Shown here in pieces: positions 36,030 to 42,651 of a stretch of DNA of 48,198 bases. This stretch comes from Burkholderiales bacterium (GTDB lineage Bacteria; Pseudomonadota; Gammaproteobacteria; Burkholderiales; Ga0077523), in the NCBI GenBank assembly GCA_022843925.1, contig JALHMS010000033.1:1-48198 (forward strand). The letters run 5' to 3'. The stretch's first letter is position 1; each line of letters starts with the position of its first letter. Made by a program: the position numbers and the translations under genes. The notes under the pieces were generated by a model. That model saw only the letters and a program-made list of their open reading frames with translations, had not been told where the DNA came from and did not search any database.

Positions 36030-37652
36030 TCAAACCCCGATCGCCGCCCCGTCGCTCCGCGGGTCCGAGCCGCCGTACCGCGTGCCGGACTCAGGATCGA
36101 TCACGATCCCGTGCGCGTGGCCCGCCAGTTCGTGCCAGTCGCCCCAGCGATTCAGTACATGCCCGCGACGCTCCAGTTCGCGCAGCGTCGCCTCCGGGAA
36201 TCGCGCCTCGATGTGCAGCGTGTCGCGCGCCTCGCCGAGGGCAAAGCGGCCGGACAGCCAGCGCGGCGATTCGAGGGCTTCCTGGATGTTGCAGCCGTAG
36301 TCGATGAGGTTCACGTACGTCTGCAGGTGGATCTGCGGCTGACCGTCGGCGCCCATGCAGCCCACGACGCTCCAGAGCTTGTCATTCCGGAATCCGAGGG
36401 ATGCGATGAGCGTGTGCAGCGGCGTCTTGCCCGGTTCGAGGCGGTTCGGATGCGCGGGATCGAGCGAGAAGTACGCGCTGCGGTTCTGCAGCACGACGCC
36501 CGTGCTGCCCGCGACGACCGCGGATCCGAACACGCCGTACAGGCTGTGGATGAGCGACACGGCGTTGCCCTCGGCGTCGACCGTCGCGATGTACACGGTG
36601 TCGCCGCTCAGGCTCCCGTACGACGGCACCTTGTCCCACGGCAGCGCGCGGGCCGGGTCGATCAGACTGCGGCGCTCGTCCGCGTAGCGCTTCGAGATGA
36701 GGCGGTCCATCGGCACGTCGGTGAAGCGCGGATCGCCCAGATGCCGGTCGCGGTCGTGATACGCGATCTGCTTTGCCTGCACGAGCAGGTGCGCGTGGTC
36801 GGCACCGCGGAACTCGCGCTTGTGCAGTTCGAACGGCTCCACCAGGTTCAGCATCTCGAGCACGGCGAAGCCCTGCGTGGGGGCCGGCGTCTCGTAGATC
36901 GTCACGTCGCGATAGGTGCCGCGGATCGGTTCGCCCCAGCGCGCGATCTGCGCGGCGAGGTCGGCCTCGGTGAAGAAGCCGCCCTTCTCGCGGGCGAAGC
37001 GCGCGAGCTCACGGGCCACCTCGCCTTCGTAGAACCCCGCACGGCCGCCGGCAGCGACCGCCTCCAGCGTGCGCGCAAGACCGGGATTGCGCAGCAGGCT
37101 GCCGGCGCGCGGCGCCTTGCCGTCCGGCATGAAGATCGCCATCGTCTCGGCGTGCGGCGCGAGGTCCGCGGCCACGAGCTCGATGAAGCCCGCGACGCGC
37201 TCGGTCACCGGAAAGCCGTCCCGTGCGTAGCCGATGGCCGTTTCCAGATTGCGTGCGAGCGGGAGGCGACCGTACGCCGCGTGCGCCTCGGCCCAGCTCG
37301 ACACCGCACCGGGTGTCGTGAGCGTGGCCGGCAGGATGCCGCGGAACGGCACCTCGGTGTGTCCGCGCGAACGGAACCAGTCGAGCGTGCCGGTCGCCGC
37401 CGCCCGTCCGCCGCCATCGAGATGGCGCACCGACTTCGTCTTCGCATCGTGGATCAACCAGAAGGCGTCGCCGCCCAGACCGGTCATGTGCGGGTAGAGC
37501 ACCGACAGCGCGGCGCTCGTCGCAATGGCCGCATCGACCGCGGACCCGCCCGCGCGCAGCACATCGACGCCCGCCTGCGAGGCCAGCGAATGGGGGCTGG
37601 TGACCATGCCCTTGGGGCCCATGGTGACCGGACGGCCGGTGGTGATGTGCAT
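36030..37652 (-). CDS. Gamma-glutamyltransferase family protein
   Basis: 540 residues of the Ntn-hydrolase family that cleaves gamma-glutamyl bonds of glutathione and related peptides. The N-terminus has GMVTSPHSLASQAGVDVLRAGGSAVDAAIA, and the autoprocessing nucleophile Thr352 is in SGDTVYIATVDAEGN, equivalent to Thr391 of the E. coli enzyme. I see no signal peptide, which differs from periplasmic Ggt; some family members act in the cytoplasm. A 5-oxoprolinase cluster 4-7 kb away on the same strand suggests a linked peptide or 5-oxoproline route. Its stop lies 5 bases from the repeats. Confidence 0.92.
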   Translation of the reverse strand: MHITTGRPVTMGPKGMVTSPHSLASQAGVDVLRAGGSAVDAAIATSAALSVLYPHMTGLGGDAFWLIHDAKTKSVRHLDGGGRAAATGTLDWFRSRGHTEVPFRGILPATLTTPGAVSSWAEAHAAYGRLPLARNLETAIGYARDGFPVTERVAGFIELVAADLAPHAETMAIFMPDGKAPRAGSLLRNPGLARTLEAVAAGGRAGFYEGEVARELARFAREKGGFFTEADLAAQIARWGEPIRGTYRDVTIYETPAPTQGFAVLEMLNLVEPFELHKREFRGADHAHLLVQAKQIAYHDRDRHLGDPRFTDVPMDRLISKRYADERRSLIDPARALPWDKVPSYGSLSGDTVYIATVDAEGNAVSLIHSLYGVFGSAVVAGSTGVVLQNRSAYFSLDPAHPNRLEPGKTPLHTLIASLGFRNDKLWSVVGCMGADGQPQIHLQTYVNLIDYGCNIQEALESPRWLSGRFALGEARDTLHIEARFPEATLRELERRGHVLNRWGDWHELAGHAHGIVIDPESGTRYGGSDPRSDGAAIGV

Positions 37653-37741
37653 GGCGGTTTCCTGGAAGAGTGGTGCGCGATTCTCTCGCAGGCGATGCCT
37701 CTCGCGATACGGCGAATGCTCGGGCGCCGCGCCCCCGACCG

Positions 37742-40066
37742 TCAGAACGCCGCGCTCAGCGCCACGTTGAGAGAGCGGCCCAACCCCGGCACGGCGACAC
37801 CCCAGGGGATGCCGTTCGTCGTCATCGACGGGCCCTGACCCAGATAGGCGCCGCCCAGCGGCAGCGAATAGAAGCGGTCAAAGAGATTCTCGACCGCGAG
37901 GTCGAGGCGGATCTTCTGCCACTCGTAGCTGGTGCGCAGGTTCACGAGGCCGTAGCCCGGAGTGCGGACTTCGTTGCGCACCCGCGAGACGTTCGATTTC
38001 GCGTCGACGCCGATCAACTCCAGCGTGGTGGTCCATGCGGCCTTGCGGTGGACGAGCGAGACCTTCGCGTTGATGGGCATGATCTGATAGAGATCGTCGC
38101 CGGTCGTGAGGTTCTCCCCCCGCACGTAGCTCACGATCGCGCCGAGGTCGACGCGCCCGAGGCGCGGCCCTTCGCCGAGGATCGACGTGCCGGACAGATC
38201 GAGTCCGTAGAGTTGCGCCCTGTGGTTCGCGTACTGCAGCAGGACGAAGCCCGTGGTGCGGGACACGTTCGCGGCGCCCCCGCACTGGCCGAAGTCACAG
38301 CGGCGCGCGTCGACGTAGTCCTCCACATAGGTGTAGTGCGTCGTGGCCTTCAAGCCCCAGCGATCGCGGGCGGCGTCGTGCCAGTCGCCGGAAAGGCTCG
38401 CGGTGTATGCCGTCTCGGGCCGCAGATCGGGATTGCCGATGTATCCGTTGCCATCGCCCACGAAGTTGTTCATGAGCGCCGCCATCGGCTGGGTCGACCA
38501 GGCGAAGCGCTCGTAGAGGTTCGGCGATCGCATCTTCCGCGCGAACCCCGCCTCGAAGGTCGCGTTCCCGGTCGGCTCCTGCCGCAGCAGCGCCGTCGCG
38601 CTCCAGTGGCGGTCGGTGCGGCGGCGGTCGCGGGCGTTGAAGGGGTTCGCGTCGGAGGCCCAGATCCCGCTCGTGCTGTAGCCCTGCACATCGTCGGCAT
38701 CGCTCTGCACGAGATCGGCGCGAAGGCCGACGAGGCTCATCCATTCCGTGCTCCAGCGCGTCTCGACCTCACCGAAGACGCCGAGGCGGTCGCGGCGGCC
38801 GTTGCGGATGTTCACGAAGCGATTGCAGCACATGGATCCGCTGACGCCGACCGGCGGCCACCAGTCGTCGAGATCGTGGGTCAGCACGTCGGTGCCGAAG
38901 CGCGCGAGGTTGCGCTCGGAAAGAGGCAGGGTCGCCTTGGCCGACACGCCGCGCGTGAGGGCGCTGCTCTCCATCGGCATGCCGGTGCCGTACGAGAAGC
39001 GGTTGGGGCCCATGTCCATACGGTGCCGCGTGCGCTGTTCGAAGACGCGCGCCTCGAGCGAGCCCCAGTCGTACTGACCCGTGTAGCGCAGGTTGACCAT
39101 GGTGTTCCGGTTGTCGGTCATGTCCATGCGCTGGTTCGGAAAGCCCTCGAAACCCACGGACTGCTCGCTCACCGCCGCCTGGATCAGATGCCGCTCGTGC
39201 TGCGCGGCCAGGTTGATCTCGCGATTGCGCGAGCCCCGGAAGGCGCTCGATCCGACGACGTCGCCTTCGAGAAACTCGCCGCCGGGCAGGAGTGAGCCGA
39301 TCCCCGCTGCCTTGAAACTCCGCCCCGCCCGGTAGTTCTGCGACTGCGCCATCGACTCGTCGAACGACAGGCTCACGCGCTCACTGGCGAGCGTCGCGCC
39401 GAACTGGTGCCCGTGCGCGTGGCCGTTGCTGCGGTAGAAGGTGCCGACGCGGCCCGTCGCGAGGAGCGGTTCGCCAGGCGCGGTAAACCGCGGCGGCGCC
39501 GATTCGACCTGGATCGTGCCGCCGATGCTGTCGCCGCCGGCGCTGACCGGTGCGATCCCCGCGAACACCGTGACGCGGGCCACCTTGGTCGGGTTGATGT
39601 ACGACAGCGGCGAGTTCATGTGATTGGGGCATGCCGACATCGCATCCACCCCATCGACCTGGATGCGGAGTCGGTCGTCCGCGAGACCGCGGATCACCGG
39701 CAGGCCGGCGATGCCGCCGGCACCGTAGACCGTCACGCCGGGAATGTCCTCCAGCAGGCGGGAACTGTCGCTGGTGACGGCGCGCTTCGGGGCGAAGTCG
39801 GCGAGATCGCGCGTGGTGGCCCCGGGACCCTCGGTCCTGGCGCGGCCCGACACGACGACGGTGGGCACGCGAAGCGACTCGAACCCGCGCACCGGCGGCG
39901 CATCGGAAGGGCCCGGCGCGCGTGGCGCTCCTGGGCGCGCCCGGATGTCGTCCGCTGCCGCGAAGGACATACCGTGTACGCCGAGACACAGGGCACCGAG
40001 GACTACGATCGGACGAACAGCGGACAAGCTCGCGATGCTTCGCCGTCGTCCGGAAGTGATGCGCAC
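37742..40066 (-). CDS. TonB-dependent copper receptor, OprC/NosA type
   Basis: 774 residues. A signal peptide, a plug (SSRLLEDIPGVTVYGAGGIAG, IRGLADDRLRIQVDGVDAM) and a 22-strand-type barrel ending in Phe. The copper-site motifs known from Pseudomonas OprC are both present: CxxxM as Cys146-P-N-H-Met150, and HxM as His348-R-Met350, with Met352 next. It would import copper across the outer membrane using TonB energy. It starts 21 bases after the stop of a PEP-CTERM gene, so the two are probably one operon. A NosA role in nitrous-oxide reductase maturation is possible but nos genes are absent here. Confidence 0.92.
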   Translation of the reverse strand: MRITSGRRRSIASLSAVRPIVVLGALCLGVHGMSFAAADDIRARPGAPRAPGPSDAPPVRGFESLRVPTVVVSGRARTEGPGATTRDLADFAPKRAVTSDSSRLLEDIPGVTVYGAGGIAGLPVIRGLADDRLRIQVDGVDAMSACPNHMNSPLSYINPTKVARVTVFAGIAPVSAGGDSIGGTIQVESAPPRFTAPGEPLLATGRVGTFYRSNGHAHGHQFGATLASERVSLSFDESMAQSQNYRAGRSFKAAGIGSLLPGGEFLEGDVVGSSAFRGSRNREINLAAQHERHLIQAAVSEQSVGFEGFPNQRMDMTDNRNTMVNLRYTGQYDWGSLEARVFEQRTRHRMDMGPNRFSYGTGMPMESSALTRGVSAKATLPLSERNLARFGTDVLTHDLDDWWPPVGVSGSMCCNRFVNIRNGRRDRLGVFGEVETRWSTEWMSLVGLRADLVQSDADDVQGYSTSGIWASDANPFNARDRRRTDRHWSATALLRQEPTGNATFEAGFARKMRSPNLYERFAWSTQPMAALMNNFVGDGNGYIGNPDLRPETAYTASLSGDWHDAARDRWGLKATTHYTYVEDYVDARRCDFGQCGGAANVSRTTGFVLLQYANHRAQLYGLDLSGTSILGEGPRLGRVDLGAIVSYVRGENLTTGDDLYQIMPINAKVSLVHRKAAWTTTLELIGVDAKSNVSRVRNEVRTPGYGLVNLRTSYEWQKIRLDLAVENLFDRFYSLPLGGAYLGQGPSMTTNGIPWGVAVPGLGRSLNVALSAAF

Positions 40067-40087
40067 TGAACCTATGTCGACGCGAAC

Positions 40088-40786
40088 TCAGCGCGCTGCG
40101 CGCTTCCTCGCCACCACGCCGAGCAGCCCGAAGCCGGCCAGGAACAGCGCGTAGGTCTCCGGCTCCGGAACCGCAGCGATGGTCTGCGAGATCGGGTAGC
40201 CACCCATGGAGCCGATGGTGCCGTAGCCGGCAACGGTGGTGCCGCTCATGCAGGTCGCGCCCATCATGCCTTCCGGCGTGCAGTCGGCGTACGCGAGCCT
40301 GTCGAGCTGCGCCTGCGTGAGCGGCGCGGTCGGGTCGGTGATGTTCACGAAGATGCGCGCGTACGCGTTCCCGGGGTTGGCGCCCGGAAAGCCCGAGTAG
40401 AGGCCGAACCCGGTGCCGGGCGACCAGCCGTCGCCACCGCCCATCGTCGAGAAGGTGTTCGTGTTGCTGTTCAGGAAGGTCGTCACGAGCAGCCCGCCGA
40501 GGACCGGATCGAGAATGGCGGACAGCTGATGCGTGAGTTCGATCTGCGCCATGTCGTAGAACGGACCCGTACCACTGACCGTGCCCGTCATGGACTGCGT
40601 GAGGAAGCCGCGCAGGCCCGAGACGGTCTGCGTGTGCTCGTTGAACGAGAACGTGCCGGTGAAGATCGTGTTCCGGGGCTGCGTATCCGGTTCAAGGTAC
40701 ACCTGGGTGACGTTGTACATCATCTCGTGGGCCTGCGCCGCGCCCGCAAAGGACAGGATCGCGGCGGCGATGGCGAGCATCTTCAT
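40088..40786 (-). CDS. Met/His-containing PEP-CTERM protein upstream of the copper receptor
   Basis: 232 residues. A signal peptide ends in AQA, and the mature protein then begins His20-Glu-Met-Met. The domain that follows is strand-rich (YNVTQVYLEPDTQPR, FNEHTQTVSGLRGFL); it has only two other histidines, His51 and His86, and a Cys pair at 169 and 179. The C-terminus is VPEPETYALFLAGFGLLG with RKRAAR, a PEP-CTERM tail. AGGAG precedes the ATG. The gene is first in an operon with the copper receptor. Copper binding by the amino-terminal His is an inference from position and sequence, not shown. Confidence 0.85.
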   Translation of the reverse strand: MKMLAIAAAILSFAGAAQAHEMMYNVTQVYLEPDTQPRNTIFTGTFSFNEHTQTVSGLRGFLTQSMTGTVSGTGPFYDMAQIELTHQLSAILDPVLGGLLVTTFLNSNTNTFSTMGGGDGWSPGTGFGLYSGFPGANPGNAYARIFVNITDPTAPLTQAQLDRLAYADCTPEGMMGATCMSGTTVAGYGTIGSMGGYPISQTIAAVPEPETYALFLAGFGLLGVVARKRAAR

Positions 40787-40866
40787 GGAAGTCTCCTGGT
40801 GAATGCCGTTCCGGCGGGCGTCATGGGACGCCGGGCAGCACACGGCACCGCGACGTGGAGTCCCGA

Positions 40867-40888
40867 GGTGCTGCGTCGACGCAGCACC
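40867..40888. promoter_or_regulatory. Perfect 22-base palindrome upstream of the copper operon
   Basis: GGTGCTGCG-TCGA-CGCAGCACC, centred about 90 bases before the PEP-CTERM start codon. It could be an operator for a dimeric regulator or a terminator of the gene upstream. A further hairpin, TGCGAC-CAGTT-GTCGCA, lies at 40939-40955. The whole 40787-41044 spacer holds no gene. Confidence 0.5.
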
Positions 40889-41044
40889 GACCCGCTCGAT
40901 CACCGGAAGATTAGGCGGGTGCTGATGCGAGGGGAATGCGACCAGTTGTCGCACCTCGGATACCGGGGTCGCCGTTCGGCATCTTCGCTGCACGCGAGGT
41001 CGGATGCGGCGCCCACCTTCGGCACCTGCCTCGCGCCGACGGCC

Positions 41045-41824
41045 TCAGAAGATGTCGATGACGACCTTGACGCCGACGCTGTAGCGGTCGCTCGCGGGCT
41101 GGAAGATGAGGTTCTGACCCTGCGTCGTGTGGGTCACGGGTTCCATCGGTGAACGGGAGAATCGGAAGCTGTCGACGTAGAGCACCACCGCGATGGGATC
41201 CTGGAAACGGTAGCCGAGGTGCAGATACGGCGAGGGGCGTTTGCCCGGCCTCAGGATCGGGTTGCTCGCGAAACCGATGTCCGAGAGGTGGGCGTTCTCC
41301 CACGTGTAGAACGGCATCTTCACGCCGGCGCCCGCGAGCCAGCCCGTGCCCTTCGCCTCCGTCTCGACGCCGAGCCGAGCGAAGCCGATGACGAAATCCT
41401 CCTTCTGCGATCGCGAAAGGCTGCGCTGCCAGACGTCGACACCCGCGCCGAGGACGACGTCGACCGCGCGCGATCCGTGGACATCGAACCGATAGCGCAC
41501 CTGACCCTCGTTGCTCGTCCCGAGGTAGCCGGTCTGGCTCTGGATCGGCGTGTTGGGCGGAAAGAGCGTCGCGCCTTCGTAGTTGACCTCGCCGCCGTAG
41601 AGTCGGCCGCGATAGGCGAACAGGACGCCGGCATCCCGCGGCATCGTGTACTCGGCACCGGCCGACAGCAGCGCGCCGGTTTCCTTCACCTCGGGCCTGG
41701 TGTCCTCCTTCCAGGAGAAGTACTCGGTCCCGATCGAGACCCGCAGCTGCGCGTGGGCGGGCAGCGCGGATGCCGCGGAGATGGCGAACAGCGCCAGACT
41801 GGCGGCGGTGGAAACGATCTTCAT
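41045..41824 (-). CDS. Outer-membrane beta-barrel protein of unknown function
   Basis: 259 residues with a signal peptide ending at HAQ (about 26). The mature part has repeated amphipathic strands (LRVSIGTEYFSWKED, AGVLFAYRGRLYGGEVNY, VDVVLGAGVDVWQRSL, SPYLHLGYRFQDPIAVVLYVDSFRFS) and ends in Phe. This is the pattern of 10- to 12-strand barrels. No recognised transport substrate. It lies upstream of the copper operon on the same strand but is separated by 258 bases and hairpins, so I treat it as a separate unit. Confidence 0.78.
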   Translation of the reverse strand: MKIVSTAASLALFAISAASALPAHAQLRVSIGTEYFSWKEDTRPEVKETGALLSAGAEYTMPRDAGVLFAYRGRLYGGEVNYEGATLFPPNTPIQSQTGYLGTSNEGQVRYRFDVHGSRAVDVVLGAGVDVWQRSLSRSQKEDFVIGFARLGVETEAKGTGWLAGAGVKMPFYTWENAHLSDIGFASNPILRPGKRPSPYLHLGYRFQDPIAVVLYVDSFRFSRSPMEPVTHTTQGQNLIFQPASDRYSVGVKVVIDIF

Positions 41825-41895
41825 GGACGAACGATTCCCGCGGAAGTGGATGCCCGCGGAATGTAGGCGAAAACCCGAGGGCGGGATAGCGCGGA

Positions 41896-42651
41896 TCAGC
41901 AGGGGCGGAGACTGAAACCCGCGCCCTCGAGGGCAACGCGGAGCGCCCGTGCGAGGCTCACCGCAGCCGGCGAATCGCCGTGGACGCAGATGGTGTCCGG
42001 GATCACCGGCACCCACACGCCGTCGACCGACAGCACCCGCCGATCGCGAACCATGTCGAGCGCCTGCGCCACGGCCTTCGACTCGTCGTGGATGACGGCG
42101 CCCGGCTCGCTGCGATCGACGAGTCCGCCGTCGCGCTTATAGGCCCGATCCGCAAAGACCTCCGACGCCACCGCGAGCCCGATGGCCTCCCCGGCCGCAG
42201 TCAGCTCGCTCCCCGCGAGTCCGTAGAGCACGAGGTCGGGATCGAAATCGCGCACGGCGCTTGCGATGCCGCGCGCGAGCGACACATCGGTGGCCGCCAT
42301 GTTGTAGAGCGCACCGTGCGGCTTGACGTGATGCAACCGGCCACCGGCAGCACCCGCGAACGCGGCCACGGCACCGATCTGATACAGCGTGAGATCGTAG
42401 GCTTCCTCGGCGGTGATCTGCATGCGGCGACGACCGAACCCCAACAGATCGGGCAGCGACGGATGCGCACCGATCGCGACGCCGTGAAGCAACGCCCGTC
42501 GTACCGTGCGGCGGATCGTGGCCGGGTCACCCGCATGGAACCCGCAGGCGATGTTCGCGGACGTCACCACCTCGAGCAGGCTGGCGTCATCCCCCATGGC
42601 CCAGGGCCCGAAGCCCTCGCCGAGGTCGCTGTTGAGATCGATCGTGTGCAT
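41896..42651 (-). CDS. pxpA: 5-oxoprolinase subunit A (LamB/YcsF family)
   Basis: 251 residues with the family opening MHTIDLNSDLGEGFG and the conserved segments NIACGFHAGDP, GVAIGAHPSLPDLLGFGRR, VKPHGALYNMA, ASEVFADRAYKRDGGLVDR and TICVHGDSP. PxpA works with PxpBC to hydrolyse 5-oxoproline to glutamate using ATP. The start is set by this conserved N-terminus. It is separated from pxpC by 313 bases that include a repeat element, so transcription from the pxpBC promoter may still reach it. Confidence 0.95.
   Translation of the reverse strand: MHTIDLNSDLGEGFGPWAMGDDASLLEVVTSANIACGFHAGDPATIRRTVRRALLHGVAIGAHPSLPDLLGFGRRRMQITAEEAYDLTLYQIGAVAAFAGAAGGRLHHVKPHGALYNMAATDVSLARGIASAVRDFDPDLVLYGLAGSELTAAGEAIGLAVASEVFADRAYKRDGGLVDRSEPGAVIHDESKAVAQALDMVRDRRVLSVDGVWVPVIPDTICVHGDSPAAVSLARALRVALEGAGFSLRPC

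Follow-up and report, generated by a model that had tools for sequence, protein, structure and literature searches.

A Surface Protein Family with a Conserved Methionine-Cysteine Motif as a Candidate Copper-Uptake Partner of OprC-Like Receptors

We propose that a PEP-CTERM protein encoded in a Burkholderiales genome is displayed at the cell surface, binds copper, probably as Cu(I), and supplies it to the OprC-like receptor encoded beside it, and that it belongs to a rare family of copper-uptake partners, a reading to which we assign a probability of about 0.62. After export, the PEP-CTERM/exosortase route would deliver the protein to the cell surface or matrix, where copper, probably Cu(I), would be captured by a cluster of Met and Cys residues (Met66, C169, M174/M175, C179/M180, and M194). 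On docking with the OprC-like receptor encoded just downstream, the protein would pass the captured copper to that receptor's CxNxM-HxM site, and this TonB-dependent receptor would import it. The passage of copper across the outer membrane of Gram-negative bacteria is poorly known, and OprC has been described as the first TBDT to import copper without a metallophore (PMC8610252). If the proposal is true, a dedicated family of surface proteins tied to OprC-like receptors makes the hand-over of copper from protein to receptor testable in cultured bacteria, and it offers a Cu(I) motif as a target for mutation and a definite job for a PEP-CTERM protein.

The gene pair and its receptor

The window analyzed here is the whole stretch of 48,198 nucleotides. 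A preliminary description, made from its letters, had placed a PEP-CTERM protein gene, with a mature product beginning HEMM after a cut at AQA, 21 bp before a receptor gene, and this arrangement was confirmed, on the minus strand (Table 1). The receptor start follows the stop of the PEP-CTERM protein gene on the same strand, a Shine-Dalgarno-like stretch (AGGAGA) lies just upstream of the latter gene, and the two are presumably transcribed as an operon. The precursor begins MKMLAIAAAILSFAGAAQA, followed after the predicted cut by HEMMYNV; the AQA cleavage agrees with the (-3,-1) rule, and its position coincides with the cut between AHA and TVTV in the nearest homologue. The mature protein contains exactly three His (20, 51, and 86), nine Met, and two Cys. 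Its C-terminal PEP-CTERM signal scores 32.7 bits against a PF07589 cut-off of 20.7, and the window genome has 92 PEP-CTERM matches and two exosortase matches over the cut-off (PF09721). A sorting signal above its cut-off thus occurs together with an exosortase in the same genome, where export and sorting of such a protein would be ordinary given these numbers. No CruR/DUF2946 leader was recognized by eye among the ten ORFs of at least 20 aa that overlap 40780-41060, and no Rfam element reached the gathering score within 37000-42000.

Table 1. Features of the gene pair, with positions in the window
Feature	Position	Strand	Remarks
PEP-CTERM protein gene, 232 aa	40088..40786	minus	ATG at 40786, stop at 40090-40088
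Predicted signal peptide, residues 1-19	40730..40786	minus	Cleaved behind AQA according to the (-3,-1) rule
Core domain of the mature PEP-CTERM protein, precursor residues 20-207		minus	Mature part
His20 codon, predicted first mature residue	40727..40729	minus	His in 1/18 copies only
Met66 codon, conserved	40589-40591	minus	Alignment of 18 copies
C-x4-MM-x3-CM motif (C169, M174, M175, C179, M180), proposed Cu(I) site	40247..40282	minus	Conservation
Met194 codon, conserved	40205-40207	minus	Alignment of 18 copies
PEP-CTERM sorting signal	40100..40174	minus	PF07589
TonB-dependent receptor gene, OprC-like, 774 aa	37742..40066	minus	GTG start at 40066
Receptor CPNHM (C146-x-N148-x-M150)	39617..39631	minus	Aligned with OprC C143/N145/M147
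Receptor HRM (H348-x-M350)	39017..39025	minus	Aligned with OprC H323/M325

The receptor had been described as OprC/NosA type, which is correct for the kind of receptor but not for its family assignment. Its best solved-structure match is OprC, and its CxxxM and HxM residues align with C143/M147 and H323/M325, the four residues that bind copper in OprC crystals (PMC8610252). Against the OprC model TIGR01778 it scores 124.9 bits, under the cut-off of 472.45, and the equivalog label was dropped on that score; the best NCBIfam score, to a heme-receptor family, is also below its cut-off (146.8 versus 316.85). A profile built from 17 related receptors could be aligned to OprC almost end to end (E = 3.6e-53), with C-x-N-x-M and H-x-M invariant in all 17 and falling on OprC C143/N145/M147 and H323/M325; this alignment omits one near-copy (G211, of G081), one truncated sequence (G381), the plasmid receptors, and eight more distant receptors. 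Both motifs are kept in 22 of the 23 receptors of our tree, with or without a partner bearing the core domain, the 23rd being a truncated sequence. The eight more distant receptors (30-34% identity), checked for motifs only, all contain HxM, while CxNxM is absent from seven of them. CxNxM is thus the telling half of the putative ligand set and HxM the less diagnostic one, and this control supports the reading of a copper receptor. TonB-family genes, assigned by family match, by eye, or by annotation, are found directly downstream of related receptors (L060:3793-4635, L086:8361-9104, L095:7113-7865, and L096:7431-7763), which suggests dedicated energization.

Distribution of the core and its linkage to the receptor

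The core domain is known at 12 loci, in 11 genomes and on a plasmid of Ideonella dechloratans. The 11 genomes hold 18 copies, one to three per locus, and the plasmid encodes one protein, WP_151124326.1, which is annotated as "hypothetical." A pattern scan of a species-genome collection with the single protein returned five loci, with a receptor homologue beside each match. In profile searches, the core turned up in 4 of 369 class-sample genomes (window genome included), in one genome each among 349 of an acidobacterial class and 240 of the class to which the "delta" genome belongs (in both the previously known one), in 4 of 249 of one order (two new), and in 1 of 398 of the phylum (the window genome); these genome sets overlap and the counts are not additive, and in some genomes the searches scored part of the first-look candidates only. 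One record held under two names (G004 and G380) was counted once. The core family is rare and scattered across distant lineages.

Linkage to the receptor is strict. A receptor adjoins the core at 12 of 12 loci, always co-directionally and with the nearest core gene 9-108 bp off, a range for which some gene starts or ends were set by hand (G383, G211, and G357). CxNxM and HxM are present in 11 of the 12 core-linked receptors, and the twelfth is cut off by a contig end. The profile searches reported no core copies away from the receptor in core-bearing genomes at E ≤ 1e-5; weak matches of the single protein to many other PEP-CTERM proteins, chiefly over the C-terminal third, were not reported by the profile. 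The pairing at all the loci found is clearly above chance. An ordinary PEP-CTERM matrix protein could stand beside a receptor by accident in a genome with as many PEP-CTERM matches as this one, but the same core accompanies the same receptor in distant lineages at every locus, and in four genomes without a detected exosortase it takes a lipoprotein form. We regard a chance neighbor as extremely improbable.

Related receptors also occur by themselves. Eight other genomes of the class sample have a receptor at 40-52% identity, and the core is present in two of them and absent from six, absence meaning no genome-wide match at E ≤ 1e-5, which makes the core an accessory of one receptor branch. In a tree of 23 receptors, one of them partial, 11 of the 12 core-linked receptors fall in one set with 100/97 support, and the acidobacterial receptor stands apart. 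Core presence changes twice on this tree, against a mean of 8.0 in shuffled labels, a comparison that shows label clustering only and is aided by the near-copies G081/G211 and G381/G382. Core and receptor identities are correlated (r = 0.55; 101 of 10,000 permutations as high) across 10 of the 12 loci, with one core copy taken from each. A related receptor was present in 41 plasmid records, with neighbors inspected in four, Ideonella included. At one locus (G357; L052:2971-7499), a single receptor lies between two core genes whose anchors differ by eye, VPxPA-type upstream and lipoprotein-like downstream.

Conserved residues, fold, and surface anchors

The conserved residues of the core are rich in sulfur. 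Among the 18 aligned copies, Met66, D168, and Met175 are kept in all, M194 in 17, C169, C179, and M180 in 16 each, and M174 in 14; by eye, the Ideonella copy retains all the conserved Met and Cys positions and His86. A Met/Cys cluster of this kind suits Cu(I), and we take it as the candidate metal site.

The preliminary description had sought the site elsewhere, in a histidine brace formed by the N-terminal His with His51 or His86, which would bind Cu(II) as in LPMOs, PmoB, and CopC-like proteins. The predicted first mature residue is indeed His, and the genomic context is one of copper. Conservation, however, speaks against it, with His20 and His51 in 1 of 18 copies each and His86 in 12 of 18. 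The closest relative has Thr at the first position, beginning TVTV, and keeps the receptor; loss of His20 in homologues that retain the receptor is what the description itself had named as counting against a brace. Among the ten copies with a signal peptide, only the window copy has His as its first residue under the AxA rule, T, A, or S standing first in the others as judged by eye, and 8 of the 18 copies are lipoprotein-like, with no free N terminus at the core. Pfam gave no LPMO or CopC match in the window protein or the eight copies scanned (best E 0.27). The brace was rejected on conservation and seems to us very improbable. The broader idea, of a surface partner for a copper receptor, is well supported by the receptor present at every locus, its OprC-type motifs, and the two MbnP-MbnH operons described below.

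The conserved Cys pair may form a disulfide, as two divergent second copies (L054:4831-5688 and L053:4587-5342) lose both Cys together. In these copies Met and Leu stand in place of the two residues, and additional Met residues appear; either a sulfur site has been rebuilt with thioethers or a disulfide has been lost. The joint loss would also fit a receptor-associated surface protein without a metal site of its own, which would act as a lid, gate, or co-receptor, or capture a copper chelate or a copper-bearing protein; the Cys pair would then be a structural disulfide. As a lid, gate, or co-receptor it would resemble SusD or TbpB in role. The strict receptor linkage and partial co-variation are in keeping with it, as is a resemblance in fold, very weak and not significant, to Slam-dependent surface lipoproteins and to NHBA (E above 0.1, among the matches listed). 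It leaves unexplained, however, the invariance of Met66 and Met175 and a motif in which as many as five residues carry sulfur. We consider it unlikely and prefer a protein that itself binds copper, probably as Cu(I).

AlphaFold predicts a beta-rich domain, with a pTM of 0.73 for the window protein and 0.80 for a shorter acidobacterial copy. The motif loop has low confidence in both models, so that a convergence of the sulfur residues would be conjecture. Neither model had a PDB fold match at E ≤ 0.001 (best 50 of 364 and 50 of 455 matches), and the core had no cupredoxin match in Pfam, nor did cupredoxins figure in the 50 fold matches listed per model. Structure and family scans covered 8 of the 18 aligned copies, those of the window and the pattern-scan loci, and gave no credible Pfam or NCBIfam match to the core (best E 0.27 and 0.02). 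There was likewise no PHROGs match to the window protein at E ≤ 0.01 and no credible PDB sequence relative of the core (best E 0.54 and 0.37). In Pfam the window protein matches PEP-CTERM only; an NCBIfam candidate, NF038126 (FxDxF PEP-CTERM), was set aside, having matched the C-terminal tail only (residues 184-229) and under the cut-off. The open-access literature searched contained no description of the core family, which is as yet unnamed. The single Trp of the core lies in a loop that is missing from several copies.

The core is found on two kinds of surface anchor. Besides the copies with a signal peptide, nine are lipoprotein-like by eye (8 of the 18 aligned and the Ideonella protein), and their N terminus would therefore be a lipidated Cys far from the core. 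PEP- or VP-type C termini occur in six genomes, all six with an exosortase, and lipobox-only forms, most with Ig-like repeats, occur in five, of which one (G384) has an exosortase. A one-sided Fisher test by hand gives 0.015 for this association, a value weakened by two near-relative pairs and by incomplete genomes; lipoboxes, AxA cuts, and PEP/VP-type C termini were all judged by eye. As far as sequences can tell, anchor type largely follows the presence or absence of exosortase, and what stays constant appears to be extracellular display rather than the anchor.

Metal context and known systems

Copper genes accompany the pair in some lineages. MbnP and MbnH were found in 2 of the 12 core operons, with neighbors at most core loci family-scanned in part only. 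In one genome (G1112) the order is MbnP-MbnH-receptor-core, with MbnP at 219.5 bits (cut-off 140) and MbnH at 425.4 (cut-off 362.85), and in Ideonella it is DUF2946-MbnP-MbnH-receptor-core, with DUF2946 at 24.8 bits (cut-off 23.7). CruR, a copper-sensing leader at the head of copper operons, those with MbnPH and OprC-type genes among them, belongs to the DUF2946 family (PMC9426467). Two of three core-less plasmid relatives also lie behind a DUF2946-like gene, over the cut-off in Azospirillum and slightly under it in Acetobacter; the third, from Sphingopyxis, is without one. Of the 11 core genomes only two have MbnP, the window genome being without it, and in one of the two (G382) it is on a contig other than that of the pair. 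The three flank proteins of the window that were scanned (gamma-glutamyltransferase, an outer membrane barrel, and PxpA) include no copper protein.

Signals of nickel are present as well. The acidobacterial pair has NikR and a NicT-type nickel transporter on one side and the copper-storage protein Csp1 on the other (L061:1285-5715 and L013:1636-2061), a locus with mixed nickel and copper signals, and in Ideonella a gene annotated as a nickel transporter precedes the operon, beyond a transposase. The metal handled by the pair might thus differ from copper, nickel being one candidate, in all lineages or in some of them. Against this stand the alignment of CxNxM-HxM with the OprC copper ligands, the operons with MbnP, MbnH, and DUF2946, and Csp1 at the very same acidobacterial locus, and we hold a metal other than copper to be improbable.

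The closest functional analogy may be with ZepA, a zinc exoprotein of Anabaena (PMC10957091). Like the window protein, ZepA has a signal peptide and PEP-CTERM, serves metal uptake, and occurs sporadically in distant phyla, and TBDT genes are reported in its gene neighborhood. ZepA differs in its metal and in its conserved H-X2-9-H-F/Y-H site, and the portions of that report drawn on here do not mention lipoprotein forms. The three His of the mature window protein do not make up such a site; it has the Met/Cys motif instead, and an OprC-like receptor is its neighbor at every locus. By analogy, the core would work like ZepA while being unrelated to it.

Other extracytoplasmic proteins invite comparison. 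The copper protein azurin of Pseudomonas aeruginosa is secreted and is reported to help copper uptake by binding a receptor of the OprC type (PMC6907878), but its secretion is by a T6SS, whereas the core is anchored by PEP-CTERM or, apparently, by lipid, and has no cupredoxin match. The binding of azurin to OprC is disputed, no complex having been obtained with purified functional OprC (PMC8610252), which weakens only the analogy. MbnP-MbnH and MopE/CorA are likewise extracytoplasmic, copper-linked proteins, and MbnP/MbnH pairs are often beside TBDTs (PMC3621798); TIGR04052 and PF20243 matched neither the window protein nor the eight scanned copies, and the Ideonella protein, scanned against NCBIfam only, gave no match. 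Judged by its sequence, the core is not a member of the ZepA, MbnP, or histidine-brace proteins. The window receptor, for its part, joins OprC/NosA (PMC8610252) and CrtA (PMC12914433), both copper TBDTs, in kind: it has OprC's CxNxM and HxM ligands but falls under the TIGR01778 cut-off, and one branch of these receptors has core partners, which the relevant passages of the two reports do not mention.

A wider proposal, which we offer tentatively and at slightly less than even odds, is that such proteins form an undescribed family of "cuprophores" made of protein: beta-rich domains tethered to the surface that, by means of a sulfur-rich Cu(I) site, would feed an OprC-like receptor working without a metallophore. 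Their partner role would stay the same, and the anchor (PEP-CTERM or lipidated Cys) would vary with the sorting machinery of the host.

Two minor observations concern genes around the pair. In the window, gamma-glutamyltransferase (TIGR00066; 36030-37652, minus strand) and the 5-oxoprolinase subunit PxpA (41899-42651, minus strand), genes of gamma-glutamyl breakdown, flank it, and an outer membrane beta-barrel protein (41045-41824, minus strand; PF13505, 30.1 bits versus 28.7) without an NCBIfam match is encoded upstream; all three were considered as parts of the system and dropped, as tblastn matched none of them at the other 11 core loci. In Ideonella dechloratans, a gene annotated as "methanobactin export MATE transporter MbnM" (L094:3564-4835) is by match MbnH, a di-heme enzyme (406 bits, over the cut-off).
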